From: a virus
Reading direction: 5' to 3' (one strand)
Length of the DNA stretch: 37,581 bases
Virus record (IMG/VR): IMGVR_UViG_3300030106_006605
Span: 1 to 37,581 of that record
Shown here: in pieces, positions 441 through 35,912 of the stretch
How positions within the stretch are numbered: the first letter of the stretch is position 1
Layout of the letters: every line of letters begins with the position of its first letter
Made by a program: the position numbers and the translations under genes
Notes under the pieces: generated by a model
The model's database searches: none
What the model was told of the DNA's origin: nothing
The model's input: the letters and a program-made list of their open reading frames with translations, nothing else

Positions 441-468
441 ACTATATAAATAGTCTAGCAATTTACAA
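441..468 (-). promoter_or_regulatory. Candidate sigma70-type promoter for the 133-aa gene
   Basis: On the minus strand TTGTAA (463-468, 4 of 6 to TTGACA) is followed after 16 bases by TATAGT (441-446, 5 of 6 to TATAAT). Transcription would begin near 434, leaving a leader of about 28 bases that includes the Shine-Dalgarno. The spacing is acceptable but the -35 is weak, and the region is AT-rich, so chance is possible. Confidence 0.4.
446..456. repeat. ATAAATAGTCT element, second copy
   Basis: This is the other copy of the 11-mer found at 35505-35515. With the preceding T it gives TATAAATA, the T4 late-promoter core, on the plus strand; it lies within the spacer of the sigma70-like candidate at 441-468. 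Confidence 0.3.
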
Positions 469-3400
469 AAGCATAGTCACCTTTTTGCTCTATGCTTATC
501 TGTGTATCCACACAATCTTTAAGAGCCTCAAGATGTGATATGAGCAAAACAGTCTTAAAATGTGACTTAATCATATTTAACATTCTTGCAAAACCCTCCA
601 TGTTTTCCTCGTCCAGGGCTGTGCCCGGTTCATCCAAGATAAAAATATCCCCCTTGGGCAAATTCGATACAGAGAGCATAGCCAATCGAATAGCCATCGC
701 TGCGATCGTTTTTTCTGCGCCGGAGCCCATCTCAAGAGGTCTTGGATCTTGGTGGGGATGCTGTATATGTATATTAAGCCTCTTTCCGTCGTCCTCGAAA
801 AACACACCAAATTCTACAATGTTAACAAGAAACTTGGCGATTTCCTCGTTAATGACAGGCAACTTTTTCTTAATAATATCATATGCAATTCCGTTACTAT
901 GCATGCATTTAAGGTATAGATCGTAAGCTGAGTATTCCCTTCTCAGGTCTTCAAGTTCTTCTTGTTGCTCCTCAAGGTTTTCAACTCTCTGCTCCAAAGA
1001 ACCAATCTTTTTAATACTCATCTTTATTTTATTATCTAGATCATTGTCTAATCGCTCCGCGTTCTGAAGGTCGGAGTTCCGCAAGTCGGACATTTCTGTC
1101 AGCAGCCTTTCCAAATTTTCAATCGCTTCTTTGTTCTCTTCATACTTTCTCTTTTGCAACTCCAACTCACTCTTTGTAATATTCGCTGTGGAAATAGCAT
1201 TCTTAGCTCGTTCTATGGAAAGTTCAACCCTGCTCTTCTCGGCTACCGAAGAATCCCTTTTCTTTACAAGTGCTTCATGTTTTTCAATATTGCTCACAAC
1301 GACTTCGGGATCCAAAGACAAGCGCTCATTTTTTAGTCCTTGTATATCATCTTCAACCGTTGGTTTATTTGCCAACGCCTGTTCAGCCTCTCGCAAGCAC
1401 TTGCAGCCCCTGAGGAACTCTGGGTCTTCAAGTGAGGACACCTTCCTCTCTATCCGTGCCAGTTCCCTGTTATGATCGTCAATCTTGCCCTGTAGGTCAT
1501 CCATTTGTTGCTTCTTCTGCTCAAGTAAGGGCATATCCAGCACGGCCAAGAACCGACCTATCTCCTCTATCAAGCGCTCCAGCGCAATCAATTTATCAGA
1601 CCAGTCAGACAAAGATTCTCCGTACTCGGATATTGTTTCCTCAGCAGTTTTTATACCACTGACAACGGAAGCGATATCAATGGGTTCGGCAGGTACATTA
1701 TCAATTTTCTGTTGAAGATTCAATATTTTACCAGTGATCTCCGAAACGGCCTGTTTTGATTTTTTCTTGTCCTCGATTAGATCCTCGTGCTCTACTGTTG
1801 CATCTGCAAGGTCTGAGGTTGTGTCGTCTATCTCAGATGAAAAGTCCTTGCCCTCTAATCTTTTAAGGGCACCCTTGATATCGGAAGCGTCTTGTTTGGC
1901 GTACTTAAACTTCTTATCAAAAAGCTCAAGATCAAGAAATTTAGCAAAAATCTCCTTCCTTTTAGTGGAGCCTTCGCGAATGAAAGAAAGAGAATCCAAC
2001 TGTGAAGACATAGACGTTAAAAGAAAATCGTCCACTGTTCCAAACTTACTTCTAATGATTTTATCCGTCTCGGCCCTGGTCATCCCGTTATGGTTTTCGA
2101 CTACGTCGTCATAATGTGAATTAAACTCTACGCTTGTTTTAGCCTCTATTAGTTCCTCTCCTTTAGATTTTTTAGTATATTTGTCTAAATGCCTGTCAAT
2201 AATCCACTGTGTCCCATCGGAGGTTTCAAGCGCTACCCTCCCAAACGCAGTGTCTCTGTTATAGTTGATTACATTGACACTTTTTCTTTCATTTTTAGAC
2301 GTGGTGTTGAACATCGTATACAACAAACTGTCGATGACGCTGGACTTGCCTGAGAAATTTTTACCGAAAACACCAACAATGCCATCCATATTACTGAAGT
2401 TTATAACATTATCTTCTCCGTAGTTAAATAAATTGTTGAAAGTCAGCGATTGTAATTTCCAGTTAACATTCCTTTGAACCTCCTCGTTCTCTTCCGCCAT
2501 TCGATTGTATTTGTCGTTAAGGTCTAGAACCTTTTTCAGGGTTGCCTCTTCTAGTTCATACCCTTCAACAAAATCCTTTATCAATTTTCTCTGGACTACG
2601 ATATTGCGCAGATCGTCGTGACGAATATTATCAACAACCTGCTCTATGTCACCGCGAGAATGTATGTTTCTATTCAAGAATGTTAGGCTCTCGGGAGAAT
2701 ATTTATGCTTTGCTATATCAACGGCTCTCTTCATGCTCTCTAGGGTAATGTTTTCAGCAGAGGCAAGTCTCAGCCTAGAGCCTTCCGGAACATCGACTTC
2801 GGGCAGTTTGCCGCTTTCTAGCTCTATTGTTATGAATGGCTTAGGGTTAGAAAAAACCACCTGTTTAACTGTAAAATTATTCGCATCTTGTATATCCCAA
2901 ACCAAGATCCCCTTATCAACTTCCTCACCGAAATTCTGCTGAATGGTTGACCCTGCGTATCTCACACGGCCCGCTCTATCGAGTTTTTGGGCCTTATGGA
3001 TGTCCCCCAGGAATGCGTAATCAAACTCCTCAAATATTTCTATCTCGTTTTCACCACTATCCATAACCCAGCCGCTATCGGTCTGGCAATTGGATATCGA
3101 GCCGTGGTAAAGTGCTATATTAACATTATCATAATTGGTGGGATCCTGCCAATTCTCTTCATCAAACACCGAAAGGACATTCAAAGCGAACCCGTCACGC
3201 AGATACACCTCACAAGAGTTTTTAAGCAAGTGTAAGTCGGGGTGCTCTAGCGCTTCCACAATTGGCGAGATGGCATCTAGCCTGCCCGAATTCTTTAGAT
3301 TACCATCATGATTTCCGAGGATGACATACGTCGGGGCTATATCCGCCAATGAAGACAGAAACTCGGAGCACATGTCCACAAACTCGGGTGATATTTGAGT

Positions 3401-3547
3401 CTTTGTGTGGGCTATATCACCACAATGAATTATATAATCAACATTCTCTTCTTTAATTGATTCATACAACTGCTTGAATACAGACCTGTACTCAGTGTGG
3501 TAGCGCAGATTTCTAATATGTGTGTCGGCTATATGAGCAAACTTCAT
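455..3547 (-). CDS. SbcD-SbcC (gp47-gp46) fusion, recombination nuclease/ATPase
   Basis: This is a single 1030-residue chain joining the nuclease and ATPase halves of an Mre11-Rad50-type complex, which processes DNA ends for recombination-dependent replication and repair. Residues 1 to about 330 are a metallophosphoesterase with D8-x-H10, G43-D44, GNHD at 78-81, H148 and GDIH at 181-184, the family metal ligands. Residues from about 364 are an SMC-type ATPase: Walker A GKNFSGKSS at 395-403, two long coiled-coil arms, a short C715-K-C717 at the expected hook apex, signature GSGAEK at 941-946, Walker B with LDEP at 971-974, and H1005 as H-loop. In T4 and most bacteria the two halves are separate genes. 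The internal ATG near residue 350 has no Shine-Dalgarno, so I see no sign that the ATPase is also made alone. The hook is CxC rather than the usual CxxC. A promoter at 3563-3591 precedes the gene. Confidence 0.95.
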   Translation of the reverse strand: MKFAHIADTHIRNLRYHTEYRSVFKQLYESIKEENVDYIIHCGDIAHTKTQISPEFVDMCSEFLSSLADIAPTYVILGNHDGNLKNSGRLDAISPIVEALEHPDLHLLKNSCEVYLRDGFALNVLSVFDEENWQDPTNYDNVNIALYHGSISNCQTDSGWVMDSGENEIEIFEEFDYAFLGDIHKAQKLDRAGRVRYAGSTIQQNFGEEVDKGILVWDIQDANNFTVKQVVFSNPKPFITIELESGKLPEVDVPEGSRLRLASAENITLESMKRAVDIAKHKYSPESLTFLNRNIHSRGDIEQVVDNIRHDDLRNIVVQRKLIKDFVEGYELEEATLKKVLDLNDKYNRMAEENEEVQRNVNWKLQSLTFNNLFNYGEDNVINFSNMDGIVGVFGKNFSGKSSVIDSLLYTMFNTTSKNERKSVNVINYNRDTAFGRVALETSDGTQWIIDRHLDKYTKKSKGEELIEAKTSVEFNSHYDDVVENHNGMTRAETDKIIRSKFGTVDDFLLTSMSSQLDSLSFIREGSTKRKEIFAKFLDLELFDKKFKYAKQDASDIKGALKRLEGKDFSSEIDDTTSDLADATVEHEDLIEDKKKSKQAVSEITGKILNLQQKIDNVPAEPIDIASVVSGIKTAEETISEYGESLSDWSDKLIALERLIEEIGRFLAVLDMPLLEQKKQQMDDLQGKIDDHNRELARIERKVSSLEDPEFLRGCKCLREAEQALANKPTVEDDIQGLKNERLSLDPEVVVSNIEKHEALVKKRDSSVAEKSRVELSIERAKNAISTANITKSELELQKRKYEENKEAIENLERLLTEMSDLRNSDLQNAERLDNDLDNKIKMSIKKIGSLEQRVENLEEQQEELEDLRREYSAYDLYLKCMHSNGIAYDIIKKKLPVINEEIAKFLVNIVEFGVFFEDDGKRLNIHIQHPHQDPRPLEMGSGAEKTIAAMAIRLAMLSVSNLPKGDIFILDEPGTALDEENMEGFARMLNMIKSHFKTVLLISHLEALKDCVDTQISIEQKGDYAFVNC

Positions 3548-3562
3548 TCAAGCCCTCAAACA

Positions 3563-3591
3563 AATATAGCCCTTTAGTTACAGTATGTCAA
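3563..3591 (-). promoter_or_regulatory. Strong sigma70-type promoter before the SbcD-SbcC gene
   Basis: On the minus strand a perfect TTGACA (3586-3591) is followed by exactly 17 bases and TATATT (3563-3568, 5 of 6). The -35 lies in the last codons of the upstream 656-residue gene. The expected start of transcription, about 3556, falls at the GAGGG Shine-Dalgarno (3553-3557) only about ten bases before the ATG at 3547, so the message would be nearly leaderless. A host-type promoter here suggests early or middle expression independent of the virion genes. Confidence 0.6.
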
Positions 3592-5548
3592 GAGAAAGAT
3601 CTATCTCTTTTTCGATCATAGAAGACAGCTCTTTTAAACTAAGGGGGTTGGTCCATGGCCGGTGTTCCCCGCTGACGCTGGCCCCGGTGGCGGGGCCCGT
3701 TAGGCCCATCCTAGCGCGGTAGTTTCTAACCGCTTTGTCCGGATAAAGTTTCCTGAAGGAGAGGTTCGGTACAACGTGCAATTCAGCCTCTCCGCCTTTT
3801 TCTTTGGAGGGCCTTAAAAGCTCTGCGGCATAGTATTCTCCAGGGTGGTTGATTTGGAACGCAACAATTTTAGTCCAAAAATCCCAAAGTCGCTGCGAGT
3901 CATAGCCAATATCTGCCAGTTCATTCAAGACATCCATATATTCTTTCGCAAATGCCCGCAAATCTTTAGGCTTCGATCGAGACAAAACCTTGGGTATGTC
4001 GTCGCCATAAAACATTCTAGAATTAATTGAGTCCACACACCCTAGCTTTCCAGTAACCATTTGCGTTGCGAACCCGGCCTTTGCAAGGCCCAAACCTTTT
4101 ATGGATAAAAATATAGCCATAACGTCCAAAGGGTTAGTTTCTGACGATTTAAGCGGGCCTATCATGTTATCATATATTTTTTGTCTTTGTGACCACAACT
4201 CAAAGTAAGTTTTTGTAGAGGGGACGGCAGACACTTTACTAATCCCATTTGATATGTTCACCAACTCTTCCGTTGGCATCTCTCTATAATGCTCGTGTTT
4301 CAATAAGTCCCGAGATATCAAATAAGCTTTGGGGCTGCCAAAGCCCGTCCCGGAACCGACCAGGCCTGAGCTTTTATGCATAGGATACGCCTCTCTCATC
4401 TTTCTGTTACGCGGCGCGGACCACCCGGAAGGATTTGCGGCCTCCGCATTAGAATCCTCTAGATTTATCCACTCCATTAAATGCGGGAAAAACTGCATCA
4501 CCGTGGGCCAGTCGGTTCTTTGTGTCGCATACACAAACAAAATTGTCTCCGCTAAGTTCTCCGGGCTCTCTTTGACCCATTCGTTAATTTGAGGGTTATA
4601 CTTACAAAAGCCACTTTTTCCTAAAGCGCCTGGCGTTAAGCTCACTAGTGGAACCTCTCTACCGGCGTCTTTAACTTTTGCCGGCACCTTCTCTGGGCCT
4701 CCCTCCTCCGGTTCTGGAACTTTGTACGTCCCAAGGGACGACAATGGCAGAGTCTCCTCAGGGTCCTCATCCTCCTCTGGGTCTGTGAGGGGAAGAGAAA
4801 GTTGAGTGGCTTCCGCTAGTTCAGCGACATCTTCTGGGGGGATGGGTTTAAACCCCATGTCCAAGAGTGTCTTTTGCCAAAGCGATTTCATATCTTCCAT
4901 ATCGTCGGTCAACATCCCTTCTTCGGCCATAACCTCACTTACCATGGTCATCAAATCGTCTTTTGATAACTCTTGGGCTGGATCCTCCTCGGGCACAACG
5001 CTTGACGCGAGTACTGCTCCCCTGACCATGAGTTTCCAGTCACCTGCTTCGGAGGCGTGAAAATATATTTCCTCTCCAGATAAAACTTCCTCTTGTTCTG
5101 AGTCCGTAACCCTGAAGAAATGCCCCACTGCGGGGTGAAAGCTGACCTCTTCGAACTCAGAAAGGGTGGCCGGATCCACTTCATTTGTATTAGTTGCCAC
5201 CCCCGATACACCAGCAACTAAAGTTCTTTTTCCCGTTTTCACAATCTGCTTCGCGCCCGTTTCAGATGACTGGAACCTGATCGGGGGTTCCAGTCTGATA
5301 ACATTAGTATAGGCTATGGGAGAACCGACCCTAGTGCCGCGAGGGCTTGACTTGTAGATTCCCACCATTCCATTGCGGCCTTCGTTACGGTTTGTTCTGT
5401 TGGTATGAACCCACACACGTTGCCCGATGAGTTCGTCGCCCTCTACATACGCCGCTTCAGGGGCCGTAGGAACAACGCGTGGAGGCTTAAGTGATTCATA
5501 GTACGCCTCCCTGATAATCTGTAGCAGGTCGCTTTTGCTGATTTTCAT
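3578..5548 (-). CDS. Unknown protein with N-terminal packaging-like tag and HhH/glycosylase-like core, 656 aa
   Basis: I do not recognise this as a named family. It begins with MKISKSDLLQIIREA, the short amphipathic tag also found at the starts of the 235- and 745-residue proteins. Similar sequences recur at residues 194-210 and at the C-terminus (636-650). Residues 180-300 are acidic and proline-rich, probably a linker. Residues 470-515 look like a helix-hairpin-helix followed by a conserved aspartate, as in the endonuclease III/MutY superfamily: IKGLGLAKAGF at 483-493, then CVDS at 504-507, with D506 in the place of the catalytic Asp. No Cys cluster for an iron-sulphur centre is visible. 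It could act on DNA in the virion or in the newly infected cell. The function is inferred and the glycosylase relationship needs a profile search. The Shine-Dalgarno GAGG overlaps the primase stop; the gene lies between primase and SbcD-SbcC. Confidence 0.85.
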   Translation of the reverse strand: MKISKSDLLQIIREAYYESLKPPRVVPTAPEAAYVEGDELIGQRVWVHTNRTNRNEGRNGMVGIYKSSPRGTRVGSPIAYTNVIRLEPPIRFQSSETGAKQIVKTGKRTLVAGVSGVATNTNEVDPATLSEFEEVSFHPAVGHFFRVTDSEQEEVLSGEEIYFHASEAGDWKLMVRGAVLASSVVPEEDPAQELSKDDLMTMVSEVMAEEGMLTDDMEDMKSLWQKTLLDMGFKPIPPEDVAELAEATQLSLPLTDPEEDEDPEETLPLSSLGTYKVPEPEEGGPEKVPAKVKDAGREVPLVSLTPGALGKSGFCKYNPQINEWVKESPENLAETILFVYATQRTDWPTVMQFFPHLMEWINLEDSNAEAANPSGWSAPRNRKMREAYPMHKSSGLVGSGTGFGSPKAYLISRDLLKHEHYREMPTEELVNISNGISKVSAVPSTKTYFELWSQRQKIYDNMIGPLKSSETNPLDVMAIFLSIKGLGLAKAGFATQMVTGKLGCVDSINSRMFYGDDIPKVLSRSKPKDLRAFAKEYMDVLNELADIGYDSQRLWDFWTKIVAFQINHPGEYYAAELLRPSKEKGGEAELHVVPNLSFRKLYPDKAVRNYRARMGLTGPATGASVSGEHRPWTNPLSLKELSSMIEKEIDLSLDIL

Positions 5549-5557
5549 AAAAATACC

Positions 5558-6481
5558 TCATGCTTCGATGATTTTCTTTAGTAAGTAGTTGTCAGAATTC
5601 ATAATTTCTGAACTGTTTTTCTTATCTTTAAAAATCTCTCGCGGCATGACAGCAACATCCTCGTATCCGCTGGTGTTGACCTTGTGGACCTCGACCCCAT
5701 ATCTATTGAGTTTGTTGACAATACTCATAGCCTTCTTTTCAGCGTCAGCGTCAAGAGCAACATACACAGCGGGACTCTCTATAATTATTTTTTGGAACAA
5801 GCGTGACTCTTCACGCAGTGTTGAACCCAACAATGGAATAGCGTTTCCCGCCCGTATGGCATCAAATACACCCTCGACCAAAACAATATCCGAATCCCAA
5901 TCAATATATAAGTCATTGAAGATTATATTTCTGCTGACTTTGGGATTCGTATACTTCTTCCAATCCTTTGTGTACGTCCTAGCTACAAAATAATTTACGT
6001 CTCCGTTATAGTCAAACGATGGTACTATGACTCTCCCCGCATATTCGCCCCGGATACAATGACCTATCTTCCACTTGAGAATATCTTTCTTGGTTATACC
6101 ACGGTTGGCAAGATAAAATATTGCCTTTTGTGATGTGAGAGACACACAGTCACCTGTCAACGTAACAAATTCTTTCGGAAGTGAAACACTTTGCCTCTCC
6201 TCCGGCTTATCGTCGAAGAACAGATCAAACTTGGTCAGGTCAACCTGGCCTGTGAGATTCTTCCACTCCCTGACCTGGTCGTATGTGCCGGACTTTCGCA
6301 CAAGGCGAAGTATGTTCCTGCCGCTAGTATCGCACACCCAGCATTTGTACGCGTTTTTCTCGATGTTGACAGACAGCTTCTTTTTATGGTGGTCGCAAAA
6401 CGGACAATAAAAAAGAAGCTCGTCGCCTGAATGGTAGCAGGCCCCGAGTGCATCTTTTAAAATTTTTAACTTCTTAGACAA
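5558..6481 (-). CDS. DnaG-type DNA primase (gp61-like), 307 aa
   Basis: This primase would make RNA primers for lagging-strand replication together with a helicase encoded elsewhere. The N-terminus has a zinc-binding finger of the CHC2 type with cysteines C26, C29, C47 and C50. A Toprim domain follows, with the glutamate motif VEGVFDA at 202-208 (E203) and the D-x-D motif at D244 and D246, the metal-binding residues of the active site. The length is close to T4 gp61 (about 340 residues), and there is no fused helicase domain. The start is TTG at 6479-6481, preceded by AAGGGG; no ATG gives an intact zinc finger with a good ribosome site. It lies downstream of the putative lipoprotein gene with a 12-base gap, so both probably share the promoter at 7152-7180. 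Confidence 0.92.
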   Translation of the reverse strand: MSKKLKILKDALGACYHSGDELLFYCPFCDHHKKKLSVNIEKNAYKCWVCDTSGRNILRLVRKSGTYDQVREWKNLTGQVDLTKFDLFFDDKPEERQSVSLPKEFVTLTGDCVSLTSQKAIFYLANRGITKKDILKWKIGHCIRGEYAGRVIVPSFDYNGDVNYFVARTYTKDWKKYTNPKVSRNIIFNDLYIDWDSDIVLVEGVFDAIRAGNAIPLLGSTLREESRLFQKIIIESPAVYVALDADAEKKAMSIVNKLNRYGVEVHKVNTSGYEDVAVMPREIFKDKKNSSEIMNSDNYLLKKIIEA

Positions 6482-6493
6482 TACAACCCCTTT

Positions 6494-7126
6494 TTATTCA
6501 TACCAGACAGCATAAGCAGTAAAGGGTTTACAGTTGCCCACTACATACACTAAACTGTCAGACATCTTAAAACTAAATTTACCAAGCCAAAATGTAGTCC
6601 TAACAGGGCTATGCGGGTTGGGTTTAGCAAAAACCATTCTCTGATAAATCTTAACCTTCTTGAGGTCGCCTTCTCCGGTGACCTTCAAGCTAAACGGATT
6701 GTAGACATACGATAATCTCTTATCTTCTGTTTGTCGAAAAGAAAACGGGCCGTTTACCCCATAAGAGCTTCTACGAAGTGACTGTCGGACAACCGGGCTC
6801 TTTTTTAAATAGCGATTTGGCAATTTTAGATCACTTCCGTCGCCGTAAAGATAGTGCGCTAAATTCATTGAAGATTCCGGGTATACGAATGCGGTACTCG
6901 CAATCATAGAACCATAAACAACATTTAATACAAATTTATCAACCATATTATTGGCACCACGCTGTTGCCTCTTCTCCATGTCCAAAAAAACTTTATTAAT
7001 AGCTAAACTTGTCTCGTGCCTGAGAGTATCAGACACGGGGTCAGGCGACACAAAAAAGCAGCTAGTAAAAAATATTGTCGTCATACAACCGACAATAGTG
7101 CCATATTTTATCAATTCAAAAACCAT
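6494..7126 (-). CDS. Putative lipoprotein or membrane-anchored protein, 210 aa
   Basis: I do not recognise this protein. It begins with a hydrophobic segment at residues 8-27, typical of a signal peptide or membrane anchor. Two cysteines could serve as a lipobox: IVGC ending at C14, which fits the pattern but has a short hydrophobic core before it, and FTSC ending at C23, which has a better core but an unusual Phe at -3. The remaining roughly 180 residues are rich in basic and aromatic residues with a beta-rich look. The first gene behind the promoter at 7152-7180, it has a strong GGGGAGG site at 7133-7139. An exported phage protein expressed from a host-type promoter could alter the host envelope, for example in superinfection exclusion; that is speculation from position and signal only. 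Confidence 0.8.
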   Translation of the reverse strand: MVFELIKYGTIVGCMTTIFFTSCFFVSPDPVSDTLRHETSLAINKVFLDMEKRQQRGANNMVDKFVLNVVYGSMIASTAFVYPESSMNLAHYLYGDGSDLKLPNRYLKKSPVVRQSLRRSSYGVNGPFSFRQTEDKRLSYVYNPFSLKVTGEGDLKKVKIYQRMVFAKPNPHSPVRTTFWLGKFSFKMSDSLVYVVGNCKPFTAYAVWYE

Positions 7127-7151
7127 AAGTAACCTCCCCAGTCATGCATAC

Positions 7152-7180
7152 ATCTTAGCACACCAAGAGGGTCTGGTCAA
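7152..7180 (-). promoter_or_regulatory. Sigma70-type promoter upstream of the lipoprotein-primase genes
   Basis: On the minus strand TTGACC (7175-7180, 5 of 6) is followed by exactly 17 bases and TAAGAT (7152-7157, 4 of 6). The predicted start near 7145 gives a leader of about 19 bases that contains the GGGGAGG site (7133-7139) of the gene starting at 7126. This sits in the largest intergenic gap of the window (7127-7228), marking the boundary between the virion-type genes and the replication genes. Confidence 0.6.
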
Positions 7181-7228
7181 AATAAATTTCATCTGCCGCC
7201 CAAAACACACCAGATCAGGATTTCGTTA

Positions 7229-7936
7229 TCAGCCCTTTGCTTCTGCTTCTTTTCGGGTAAACGAGTTAAGGGAAATCGGATAACCTTTATACCCGAGAGT
7301 CAACTCATACCAAACACATAACTCTTCCACGGCTGCGAAGATTCTGCCTTGCCCAAGAAGACTAAATGCCTTTTTAAAGCCCTTCCAATAATTAGCTAAA
7401 GATATAACATAATCTTGCACTCTCTCCCCGCCGCCCCGAAGAATGTTAAAGTCATAACGGTCTTTTATCAAAATTGAACCATCTTTATTGAAGGTTACTC
7501 CGGCTTTTCCGAAGCCGATAGACATATGCACATAGGGGTTAGTGCTTGTTTTAGACCAGTTCATCGTGTAGGTAGGCTCAGGGTTATTTTTGTATTTTGG
7601 GTCTAATTTCTGCGCGTTGTAATAAACTTTGTAGGAATAAATACTTCTGCCCCCAGTTTGCCTTAAATATTGTCCGATATAATAGGCCGCTCTTCTATAG
7701 GCGGCAGGTGTGACAACCAAGGGGCTTTTTTTCAATGATAAAAATAAACCGAAGTTCGCAACCCAAAGTGGAAGTGTGTTCACTGCTATGCCTGCGACAA
7801 GACTATTCTTCGGTAAAAGTGAAGCCACAACCTTAGCCGTTTTCTGCACAAGCTCGGGGGCAGTGGGTGCCTCTTCTAGGTAGTTGTTTAACTCCTCTTC
7901 AATAATGGACTCAATATCGGATTTAGTTACTATCAT
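7229..7936 (-). CDS. Unknown virion-associated candidate with N-terminal tag, 235 aa
   Basis: The function is not recognised. The N-terminus MIVTKSDIESIIEEELNNYL is the shared amphipathic tag, followed at once by L20-E21-E22-A23, which fits an [LI]-x-E cleavage site of a T4 gp21-type prohead protease. Residues about 46-69 are hydrophobic and could form one membrane segment. The rest contains several Tyr/Lys-rich beta-like stretches. The ATG at 7936 has an AAGGA site nine bases upstream, which overlaps the stop codon of the 745-residue gene, so the two are probably translated together. If the tag is a packaging signal, the mature protein would be ejected with the DNA and the hydrophobic segment might act in the host membrane. 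Confidence 0.82.
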   Translation of the reverse strand: MIVTKSDIESIIEEELNNYLEEAPTAPELVQKTAKVVASLLPKNSLVAGIAVNTLPLWVANFGLFLSLKKSPLVVTPAAYRRAAYYIGQYLRQTGGRSIYSYKVYYNAQKLDPKYKNNPEPTYTMNWSKTSTNPYVHMSIGFGKAGVTFNKDGSILIKDRYDFNILRGGGERVQDYVISLANYWKGFKKAFSLLGQGRIFAAVEELCVWYELTLGYKGYPISLNSFTRKEAEAKG

Positions 7937-7948
7937 CTAGAGAGTTCC

Positions 7949-10186
7949 TTATGCTACGCCAGTGTCACCACCGCCAATGCGACCAGCCCTCTTTGCAAGT
8001 CTGCCTGCGGCTTTCTCACGACCTGCGCCAGAGGCAAGCTGTGACAATTTATCTGCCCTAGCGACTCTAACTTGTTTTGCAACTGTTTTAAGCTGGGGGT
8101 TTCCGACGCCATATCTTTCCTCCGCTTGTGCGAGAATCCTATCTGTTGCTTTTCTTACTTCAGCGGGCGTCTTGGCTTTAGCAATCGCGGCTCGCCACCC
8201 TCGATCGGACTTGTCAGCGGTCTGTGTCTGCGCGGCGCGGGTAGCGAAGCGAAGCTCGGGGTCACCGGATTGATCGGTTGCCTTTTTGGTGCGTGGCACC
8301 GGAACATCTGAGGTCATGGCCACATGACCACGCGGTGTGGTCGCTCTCACATAGTCATCACGGTCAAGCTTGACGCCCTGACCTGTTCTTTGGGCCACGG
8401 AGGCAGGGGGTTTTGGTGAAGGCCTGTCTGCAACCGTCCCGATGTCACCGTAGGTCTTCACCGGGAGAACCAGCTTCTGGCCGACACGAATTAAATCAGG
8501 GTTCTTCTCCAACTCTGGGTTGGCCATGATCATGTCCTGCGTAGTAATGCCGAGTCTCTGTGCGATCTTAGAAACAGAATCACCTGGTTTGACGGTGTAT
8601 TCCTCATTAAGATTAATCTTTTTTCTATGAGTCTTCATCACCTCTATGGTCTCTTCTCTAACCATTGACTCTATAAGGTCTTTTGTAACTTTCATGGTTG
8701 CGGCTCCTTCTTTTATCCCTTTGTCGGCTGCATATGCTTGTGCAACTTGGCCTCGGCGTGGGGCTGTGGCCTGGGGTGTCGCCCTTCTAAACCTTTGCTT
8801 GCGAGCCTTATCGGCGCGTTGGCCAGCTTTTCGGTCAGCCGATGGTCTAGTTTCTTGTCTCGTGAGTCTGGCCTTCTTTCTTTCGAATTCTGTAATCTTC
8901 TTGTCTGCTATCCTAGCAATATCTATTGGCAAATAATCAGTTTTAAGGCTGATATATCTTTTCATGATAGGTGGCAAGTTACGGGCTTTCTCCGGTATCG
9001 CTTTTCTTTTAGGATCTTTCGCCATGGCCCTATACTTTTTCTCTATCCCTTGAAGTTCTGCGATTGCTCGGTCGTATTCCTGCATAGCCTTAGAGCCTGT
9101 GAATGTAGGTGTGGGGACTGCCTCTTTTTTCTCTTTCTCTACCTTATCCTGTTTCGGCTCAACTTTTGGTTCGGGTTTTGGTTCGGGCTTGGGGGTGGGG
9201 TCGCCCTTGAGAGACGCCTTGTATTCCTCCCCATACTGTGCCCATGCTTTTCTTATATATGAATTGTTGTATGGTCCGCTTGGGTCAAGATCAATTTGTC
9301 TAGCGTAGTCCGGGTGAGTCTTATTTACCCATGCTCTGAATTTATCACCAGTGGTTCGGTCTACAATGACACCGCCAGTAAGAACTGCCATAGCGACTCC
9401 GCCGCCGCCATTTTCTTTATCGTCCTTCTCTTCCTCTTCGGGCTCTTCCTCTTCACGACCAAGAATTTTGTTTACATTCAGTGTTCCTGTTGCAGGATCC
9501 CATTCATCTATTTTATAACTAGCGAGCAAGCCAATGGCGATCGTCTGGAGGTTCTTGCCGAATAATTTGCCAAGTCCAGCGCCGATCGCAGTACCGGCAG
9601 CAACAGAGCCAGGGTTGAGCATCGTCGCGCCCGCCAGAGCGCCGGCACCGGCACCACTAGCAGCAGCATCAGCAAGCTCGTTCTTTATGTGTCTCACTAA
9701 ATTGCCGTAATCCTCATCGTACAGTGCTTTTATCGCTTGGTTGGTTGCCGGGTCGTTTGCGATGTTACCAAGAAGTTGAGATTCGTTGGTGCCAATGCCA
9801 GTAAACCCGCCTTTCATAGATTGATGGAGGGAGTGTGCTCTTGCTGCTACTTCGCCTTTGCCAACTGCGTTTTCGTTATAATAATCCATAGACGACTTGC
9901 CACCAGCAATGCCTCTCGAAGTCATCTTCCAAGCAGCCAACAGATGTTTCCATTTAATGCCACCCTTCTTGGGGGGGAGCCACCACATTTCGCGTGCTTT
10001 CTCTTCGCCCGCAACATCCATGCCCTCTTCCTCTTCGGCCTCCGGCTCATCTTTATCTCCAGCAGGACGACGCGCACCGCCGACATAGGAGCCAGGATCT
10101 ACCGCATCGATCTCGTTTAAATAACTTTTAAGTTCCTCTTTAACAATTTTGTTGAGATCCACTGAATTCATTTTCAACTTGCGCAT
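7949..10186 (-). CDS. Multidomain protein with tag, annexin-like repeat, glycine zipper and LysM, 745 aa
   Basis: Parts in order: the N-terminal tag MNSVDLNKIVKEELKSYLNE (residues 6-25) ending in an L-N-E site; an acidic stretch (44-66); an annexin-like repeat (about 118-171) with MKGG, then GIGTNES, then helices around AIKALYDEDYG; a Gly/Ala-rich zipper-like hydrophobic segment (175-222); an acidic stretch with run-like Glu (244-258); a Pro/Glu/Lys linker (329-348); a basic coiled region (385-480); a second copy of the tag at 498-513; and a LysM peptidoglycan-binding domain (about 529-576) with YTVKPGD and GQKLVLP. A basic, low-complexity C-terminus follows. No catalytic wall-degrading domain is visible. 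The design suggests a head- or tail-packaged protein that meets membrane and cell wall at entry. The start at 10186 overlaps the resolvase gene by 13 bases; a strong internal start at 8695 is listed separately. Confidence 0.87.
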   Translation of the reverse strand: MRKLKMNSVDLNKIVKEELKSYLNEIDAVDPGSYVGGARRPAGDKDEPEAEEEEGMDVAGEEKAREMWWLPPKKGGIKWKHLLAAWKMTSRGIAGGKSSMDYYNENAVGKGEVAARAHSLHQSMKGGFTGIGTNESQLLGNIANDPATNQAIKALYDEDYGNLVRHIKNELADAAASGAGAGALAGATMLNPGSVAAGTAIGAGLGKLFGKNLQTIAIGLLASYKIDEWDPATGTLNVNKILGREEEEPEEEEKDDKENGGGGVAMAVLTGGVIVDRTTGDKFRAWVNKTHPDYARQIDLDPSGPYNNSYIRKAWAQYGEEYKASLKGDPTPKPEPKPEPKVEPKQDKVEKEKKEAVPTPTFTGSKAMQEYDRAIAELQGIEKKYRAMAKDPKRKAIPEKARNLPPIMKRYISLKTDYLPIDIARIADKKITEFERKKARLTRQETRPSADRKAGQRADKARKQRFRRATPQATAPRRGQVAQAYAADKGIKEGAATMKVTKDLIESMVREETIEVMKTHRKKINLNEEYTVKPGDSVSKIAQRLGITTQDMIMANPELEKNPDLIRVGQKLVLPVKTYGDIGTVADRPSPKPPASVAQRTGQGVKLDRDDYVRATTPRGHVAMTSDVPVPRTKKATDQSGDPELRFATRAAQTQTADKSDRGWRAAIAKAKTPAEVRKATDRILAQAEERYGVGNPQLKTVAKQVRVARADKLSQLASGAGREKAAGRLAKRAGRIGGGDTGVA
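8693..8709 (-). promoter_or_regulatory. Internal in-frame translation start (ATG 8695 with AAGGAG)
   Basis: Inside the 745-residue gene the minus strand reads AAGGAG (8704-8709), eight bases, then ATG (8693-8695), in frame. Initiation here would yield a 248-residue LysM protein beginning MKVTKDLIESMVREE, which is itself the shared N-terminal tag. The site is stronger than the one used for the full-length start. It may be a true second start or the relic of a fusion between two once separate tagged genes. Confidence 0.6.
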
Positions 10187-35525: not shown

Positions 35526-35912
35526 TTAATTGCCAATAGGCAGTTCTAATATTTCAGTGGTCATCAATGGTTTAATAAAATAAACAATTCTAAGGACAAT
35601 TGAATCTGACGGGTCAGTGTTGACAATATTAGAACTTGAAAATGTTATGTCACGTATCTGAATGTAGGGCAGATACCTACTCGTCTGTTCTTCAATCTTT
35701 GATCTTATTTGATCATATGTTTGCTGGTTGTTGTTCTCAAACAGATACCCCAAGATGCCGACACCAAAGTTGACATCCATAATTCGCTCCCCAGGGTTTG
35801 TTAAAATCAGCATTTTAAAATTTTGTGCTGCTACCTGTTTTAAATTTTTAGTAAGGGCATACCCATCGTTGGGATCCCTTACTAAAGGTAATTTTGGTGA
35901 TAAGCCTGCCAT
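35526..35912 (-). CDS. Baseplate wedge protein, gp25/GPW-like, 128 aa
   Basis: This is a small baseplate wedge protein of the gp25/GPW family (historically called lysozyme-like, but acting as a structural nucleator of the sheath-baseplate junction). The core runs from about residue 20: NLKQVAAQNFKMLILTNPGE, RIMDVNFGVGILGYLFENN, and a helix before LPYIQIRDITF. The length matches T4 gp25 (132). The ATG at 35912 has AAGGAG five bases upstream, overlapping the stop of the preceding gene, which indicates coupled translation. It is followed by the gp6-like gene, as in T4-type phages. Confidence 0.93.
   Translation of the reverse strand: MAGLSPKLPLVRDPNDGYALTKNLKQVAAQNFKMLILTNPGERIMDVNFGVGILGYLFENNNQQTYDQIRSKIEEQTSRYLPYIQIRDITFSSSNIVNTDPSDSIVLRIVYFIKPLMTTEILELPIGN

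Follow-up and report, generated by a model that had tools for sequence, protein, structure and literature searches.

Why should neighbouring but otherwise unrelated phage genes begin with the same short peptide? The question is raised by a 37,581-nt (37.6-kb) IMG/VR fragment, IMGVR_UViG_3300030106_006605, referred to here as the window, which comes from a T4-like contractile-tailed phage and had no match in a near-identity search of the phages collection. On its minus strand, gp25-like baseplate wedge and tail genes and a RuvC-like resolvase gene are followed by genes for 745-aa, 235-aa and 210-aa proteins, a primase, a 656-aa protein and an SbcCD-like protein (Table 1). A first-pass annotation had noticed one N-terminal peptide on the 656-, 235- and 745-aa proteins and a fourth copy inside the last of these, and both the positions and an independent profile bear this out. 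Scored against 311 non-redundant IMG/VR tags, with the window left out of training, the four copies took ranks 1–4 among the 11,984 positions of the window's proteins (scores in Table 1), the fifth position reaching −3.1 bits; shuffled window proteins reached 10 bits in 0 of 20 trials. The gap between these scores and the rest, together with the shuffle control, places the four copies far beyond chance. The 745-aa protein does carry the tag, although it had been read as starting at its second Met and in fact opens MRKLK-MNSVDLNKIVKEELKSYLNE. Two further stretches of the 656-aa protein (residues 194–210 and 636–650), which had been taken as related, scored −9.2 and −7.3 bits; these are noise-level values, on which extra tag repeats in this protein were rejected. 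The C-terminal stretch (636–650) is kept in relatives, though not as a tag.

Table 1. Positions of tags, tagged proteins and anchor genes in the window.
Feature	Position	Strand	Details
656-aa tag	5489..5548	-	MKISKSDLLQIIREAYYESL; candidate cut I12-R-E/A15; 29.5 bits, best in window
656-aa tagged protein	3578..5548 (starts 5548)	-	ORF; start MKISKSDLLQIIREA
235-aa tag	7868..7936	-	MIVTKSDIESIIEEELNNYLEEA; candidate cut L20-E-E/A23; 14.4 bits
235-aa tagged protein	7229..7936 (starts 7936)	-	ORF; start MIVTKSDIESIIEEEL
210-aa protein adjoining the 235-aa gene	6494..7126	-	Gene pair kept in L002; neither body at the L303 site
745-aa tag	10109..10186	-	(MRKLK)MNSVDLNKIVKEELKSYLNEI; candidate cut L23-N-E/I26; 10.8 bits
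745-aa tagged protein	7949..10186 (starts 10186)	-	Pfam LysM 9e-12, located after the internal tag
Internal tag	8603..8695	-	MKVTKDLIESMVREE...INLNE/E, residue 498 of the 745-aa protein; 6.0 bits
DnaG-like primase	5558..6481	-	Syntenic anchor common to tag-bearing relatives
SbcCD-like phosphoesterase/ATPase fusion	455..3547	-	Syntenic anchor; 84% identical in L303
gp25-like baseplate wedge gene	35526..35912	-	Pfam GPW_gp25; marks the contractile-tail module, which precedes the tagged genes

The tag, of 15–20 residues with the consensus MKITKxxLKxIIKEE...[LI]xE, extends well beyond this locus. A degenerate DNA pattern, ATG+KITKxxLxxIIxE[ED], gave at least 182 matches in at least 120 stretches of IMG/VR, with up to six per stretch among the matches listed. 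Applied to bacterial and archaeal genomes (257 Gb), the same pattern hit 11 stretches, all in metagenome-assembled genomes (MAGs) and many on short or multi-tag contigs; a gp21-type protease was present in 2 of 7 tag-bearing MAGs tested. A profile ignoring residue 1 recovered 163 more copies outside the pattern, 137 of which open with Met and 21 with Val or Leu. The wider profile scan that the first-pass annotation had proposed found the tag across IMG/VR contigs and overwhelmingly at N-termini, 338 of 343 profile matches listed on tag-bearing contigs starting at M, V or L. Random IMG/VR DNA (1.12 Mb, drawn by an arbitrary 14-mer) gave zero profile matches, and the reversed pattern gave 0 in 26 tag-holding genomes. 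The motif is short and rich in K, E and I, as chance or low-complexity helix bias might produce, but these controls, and the exact coincidence of the window's top four positions with the four copies, refute that explanation, to which we assign next to no probability. The tag is real, N-terminal and present beyond the window's phage, and it heads hundreds of proteins that have nothing else in common, in uncultured marine T4 relatives; by the exact pattern, a single genome has as many as 14 tagged genes. In the largest phages, G005, G007, G022, G025 and G029 (240–293 kb), tags number up to 14 in a genome, are mostly of the MKITKRQLRRIIKEE type, and form several clusters tens of kb from gp21. Searches of the phages collection by tblastn with short tag peptides had little sensitivity, and no description of the motif was found in searches of open-access full text.

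What follows the tag is highly variable. Among the matches listed, 300 tagged bodies were of sufficient length for comparison, and these fell into 241 unrelated clusters, 220 of them singletons. The closest relative, a 183-kb record (G089/L303) whose primase, SbcCD-like and tail genes are 82–90% identical to those of the window, illustrates an exchange. Its gene at the site of the 235-aa gene starts MIVTKSDIESIIEEELKAYLKEA, identical at 20 of 23 residues, and then continues into an unrelated 599-aa body; the DNA is nearly identical upstream too, and the alignment ends directly after L-x-E-A. The 210-aa gene has no counterpart at that site, and it occurs together with the 235-aa body in a third phage, L002, where a 500-aa protein matches it with its C-terminal part (43% identity over residues 17–222). 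With both the 235-aa body and the neighbouring 210-aa gene unmatched at this site in the closest relative, a two-gene cassette appears to have been swapped behind a fixed tag. A third protein with an MIVTKSDIE start, of 404 aa, is encoded elsewhere in the same relative. The 656-aa protein has an 82%-identical homologue there with its tag conserved as MKINKSDLLQMIREA, and the tag of the 745-aa protein is kept in its 739-aa counterpart, the residues directly after it having diverged. A scan for relatives of the 745-aa protein confirmed none; one adjoins the 656-aa homologue in the closest relative.

The bodies themselves are largely unannotated. Pfam gave few matches to 120 tagged proteins, including Sigma70_r2, pentapeptide repeats, GNAT acetyltransferase and peptidoglycan binding, and none of the matches listed was to a replication enzyme or a standard capsid or tail family. 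One tagged protein with a sigma-70 region 2 domain (L111:2124–3272) is a candidate head-packaged sigma factor. For the 656-aa protein, Pfam returned just a sub-threshold match (Phage_L5_gp82), and a sequence search of the PDB with its family returned no match; residues ~485–512, GLGLAKAGFATQMVTGKLGCVDSINSRMF, resemble the helix-hairpin-helix core of DNA glycosylases, without a Pfam call. In T4, the internal proteins are diverse host-defence inhibitors in which the capsid-targeting sequence (CTS) alone is conserved (PMC3012670), and GNAT-bearing injected polyvalent proteins are known in other phages (PMC7824862).

Fixed starts on exchangeable bodies could also reflect a DNA or mRNA element, such as a translation leader or a recombination site, the peptide being incidental. 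Such an element would fit the swap breakpoint at the tag, the lean of codons near the start to AAA and ACA, and the recurrence of one ~22-nt junction sequence upstream of some tagged genes. However, the residues are fixed and the codons vary almost like background (entropy at I12, 1.35 versus 1.52 bits), and conservation reaches residue 15 and then the [LI]xE. Codon variation near background at conserved residues indicates that selection acts mainly on the peptide, and we regard a nucleic-acid element as highly unlikely. The junction sequence, TACTAAGYATGAATGGATTAGC, recurs right ahead of different tagged genes (L101:1742, L108:2603, L061:102, L114:4949 and others) and forms the 3′ end of a conserved gene lying upstream (...KNVPGLIADTK[YH]EWIS[ND]), as though it were a remnant at cassette junctions. 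The codon variation argues against a translation leader or a promoter-like DNA element, and the upstream 22-mer belongs to the 3′ end of another gene; this reading was rejected on both grounds.

The internal copy in the 745-aa protein may be the true N-terminus of a second product. Its ATG (8695) has AAGGAG 8 nt ahead, at 8704–8709, and of the window's 222 internal ATGs, 3 have a Shine–Dalgarno-like site. The closest relative keeps the internal copy (12.9 bits, MKITKQLIESMVKEE), with AAGGAA ahead of the ATG. Annotated internal starts also exist in T4 gp21 and gp17. Given these precedents and the presence of both the internal copy and the Shine–Dalgarno-like site in the two phages, the LysM part could plausibly also be made as a separate product that carries a tag at its own N-terminus.

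The tag may end in a processing site. In T4, gp21 cleaves after L/I-x-E and the CTS propeptides span 10–19 residues; for CTS position 10, a change from E to D is reported to leave the protein packaged but uncut (PMC9026906). In the window, the [LI]-x-E tripeptides picked out by the first-pass annotation are all present as given, those of the three N-terminal tags as listed in Table 1 and that of the internal copy as L526-N-E/E529. Across the larger set, an [LI]xE ending at residues 19–28 was found in 150 of 311 tagged proteins, compared with 46±6 after shuffling and 8–11% in downstream windows; the L/I-x-E of T4-type CTSs is thus present as a sequence signature in about half of the tagged proteins, and about half lack one at residues 19–28. 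L or I occupied P3 in 43% of cases given E at P1 versus 15% otherwise (p=1e-35), V, M and F were not enriched at P3, D at P1 behaved unlike E (11%), and A, G or S stood at P1′ more often behind [LI]xE than behind other xxE (p=0.006). The preference for L/I over V/M/F and for E over D indicates more than amphipathic helix periodicity alone. The gp23 major capsid proteins (MCPs) of these phages have L-[RK]-E/[AST] at the equivalent place near the N-terminus. Although E14 of the tag scarcely varies, the search pattern demanded it, and I12-x-E14 was dropped as cleavage evidence for this circularity.

Being lysine-rich and amphipathic, the tag might instead be a membrane-targeting helix, and the AlphaFold models of the 235-aa and 656-aa proteins (mean pLDDT 37, too poor for use) both place a low-confidence helix at residues 5–20. 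The near-invariance of the acidic E14/E15 in the sample speaks against membrane targeting, which would also leave the cleavage-like sites and the N-terminus-only reuse beside head genes unexplained, making it a quite improbable role for the peptide.

The tag is associated with a gp21-type protease. A PF03420 gp21-family protease was found in 40 of 57 tag-bearing records, many of them fragments, versus 7 of 30 random records (pooled Fisher p=4e-5); by size, the tag-bearing counts were 26 of 32 at ≥70 kb and 14 of 25 at 30–65 kb, and those in random records, above the curated cut-off, were 4 of 13 and 3 of 17. This association is partly shared ancestry, all belonging to one T4-like lineage. A protease of this kind, which the first-pass annotation had suggested looking for, is encoded by the closest relative and is absent from the window, because the fragment does not reach the head module. 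In the closest relative the tagged genes (96–104 kb) are followed, after the SbcCD-like gene, by TerL, portal, gp21, scaffold and MCP genes, with gp21 at 85 kb and hence at least 11 kb downstream; from this order, the window most likely stops just short of the same five genes. Many tag-bearing contigs have genes ~50% identical to the window's primase, SbcCD-like and tail genes, and the head genes of tag-bearing phages are T4-type by Pfam (TerL, Portal_T4 and Gp23). Tagged genes share the strand of gp21 in 26 of 26 genomes. In records <200 kb, 39 of 67 tagged genes lie ≤18 kb upstream of gp21 (expected, 9.4); in genomes >240 kb they are mostly distant from it.

Two further features tie the tag to the head module. 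A small gene directly 3′ of gp21 opens in a tag-like manner (MKKSELKxxIKPLVKECIxEVLxEEG), and the scaffold (gp22-like) proteins of the clade end in a C-terminal motif, R[WFM]xxLAG[IL], that recurs in eight non-scaffold ORFs of tag loci. Five of the eight are tagged (p=0.003, three of the five coming from one contig, L002); the motif is C-terminal in the three L002 proteins and one from L089, and internal in one from L031. Ribosomal protein S21-like genes lie between gp21 and scaffold at L155:8355–8570 and equivalents (weak Pfam match); phages encoding bS21 have been described (PMC9723584). The tag could alternatively dock to a structure other than the head core, such as the tail or baseplate, a phage compartment inside the cell, or a partner of host or phage origin. 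Tagged genes come directly after tail genes in the window and its relatives, and bodies with LysM or peptidoglycan-binding domains would fit proteins acting in the tail or in lysis. Docking elsewhere, which we rate as unlikely, leaves unexplained the [LI]xE/[AGS] signature, the gp21 association and the scaffold C-terminal motif.

Together, these observations suggest that the tag is probably a propeptide for head targeting, working in the manner of the T4 CTS, new in sequence and far more widely used. This reading draws on the N-terminal position of the tag, its unrelated bodies and the cargo swap in the closest relative; on gp21 enrichment, strand agreement and upstream proximity to gp21; on the [LI]xE/[AGS] signature at residues 19–28 and its L-[RK]-E/[AST] counterpart in gp23; on the scaffold motif in tagged proteins and the tag-like start after gp21; and on the lack of replication and standard capsid or tail families among the matches listed for 120 tagged proteins. 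Against it stand the roughly half of tagged proteins without [LI]xE at 19–28, the ancestry component of the gp21 link, the distance from gp21 in genomes >240 kb, the peptidoglycan-binding and LysM bodies, which are unusual head cargo, and the scores of T4 CTS and core proteins on the tag profile (−8 to −27 bits). From sequence we infer packaging, docking, cleavage and injection of the tagged proteins, as follows. While the prohead is still growing, the short amphipathic N-terminal helix (about residues 5–20) would dock each new protein onto the prohead's helical scaffold core; a gp21-type prohead protease would then cut after [LI]-x-E, just behind or at the helix end; and the cut would free the cargo within the head, from which delivery with the DNA would follow. 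Because the tag alone would be needed, cargo bodies could be freely exchanged behind it.

The CTS-like function proposed by the first-pass annotation is partly supported, by the N-terminal, modular, gp21-enriched character of the tag, its gp21-specificity sites and its scaffold-motif link, and not by detectable homology. Like the CTS of T4 IPI, IPII, IPIII and Alt, which are processed by gp21, the tag is a short N-terminal peptide with an MK start and an I/L-x-E at its end or after it (PMC9026906, PMC5694885), and tag-bearing phages have T4-type gp20, gp21 and gp23. The tag profile detected no similarity in T4 ipI, ipII, ipIII, gp67, gp68 and gp21–24 (−8 to −27 bits; internal proteins, −20 to −26 bits), and homology to the T4 CTS was set aside on these scores; the likeness would be one of working, common descent of the peptide being unproven. 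Unlike T4, with its handful of CTS proteins, this lineage has up to 14 tagged genes in a genome and 241 body clusters.

Other systems offer partial parallels. The N-terminal 30 residues of P1 DarB send a reporter protein to the capsid (PMC9024508), a resemblance by description only, and phage P1 lies outside this lineage. In the giant phage SPN3US, the propeptides of the diverged head proteins gp53 and gp54 agree in all of their first 15 residues, and a gp21-family protease is inferred to cut them after x-x-E (PMC5694885); unlike the tag, this involves only two paralogous proteins, A-x-E specificity, propeptides mostly >100 residues and no confirmed scaffold. In the cultured Flavobacterium phage vB_FspM_immuto_2-6A, which like the tag-bearing phages has annotated T4-like gp20, gp21 and gp23, syntenic genes begin MKKSELVKLIKEEL, MKKSQLREIIRKEL and MKKSQLRQIIKEAL; these starts lack the I-T of MKITK, and the phage also has two other repeated N-terminal motifs. 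In this phage (L170/L302; 103806, 117631, 118632) a motif F[DN]L[KR][KS]FL[VT]ENKLTxN starts three proteins near head genes, and the scaffold motif R[WFM]xxLAG[IL] occurs at the scaffold end and near the N-terminus of another protein.

Injected proteins are hard to identify, and little is known of them outside a few model phages. We hold the chances evenly balanced that a major uncultured marine T4-like lineage uses an N-terminal address, sometimes with a C-terminal mimic of the scaffold R-W-x-x-L-A-G-I tail, to load a large, fast-swapping injected repertoire that includes transcription and host-takeover factors, so that the injected proteins could be listed from the genome. Should the tag prove to be a head address, unannotated proteins of marine phages would by the hundred become candidate injected effectors, the tag could be used as a handle for packaging in this new lineage of T4-like phages, and what ocean phages deliver early in infection would become directly testable. 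The T4 internal-protein strategy would then have a separately recognisable and much larger counterpart.
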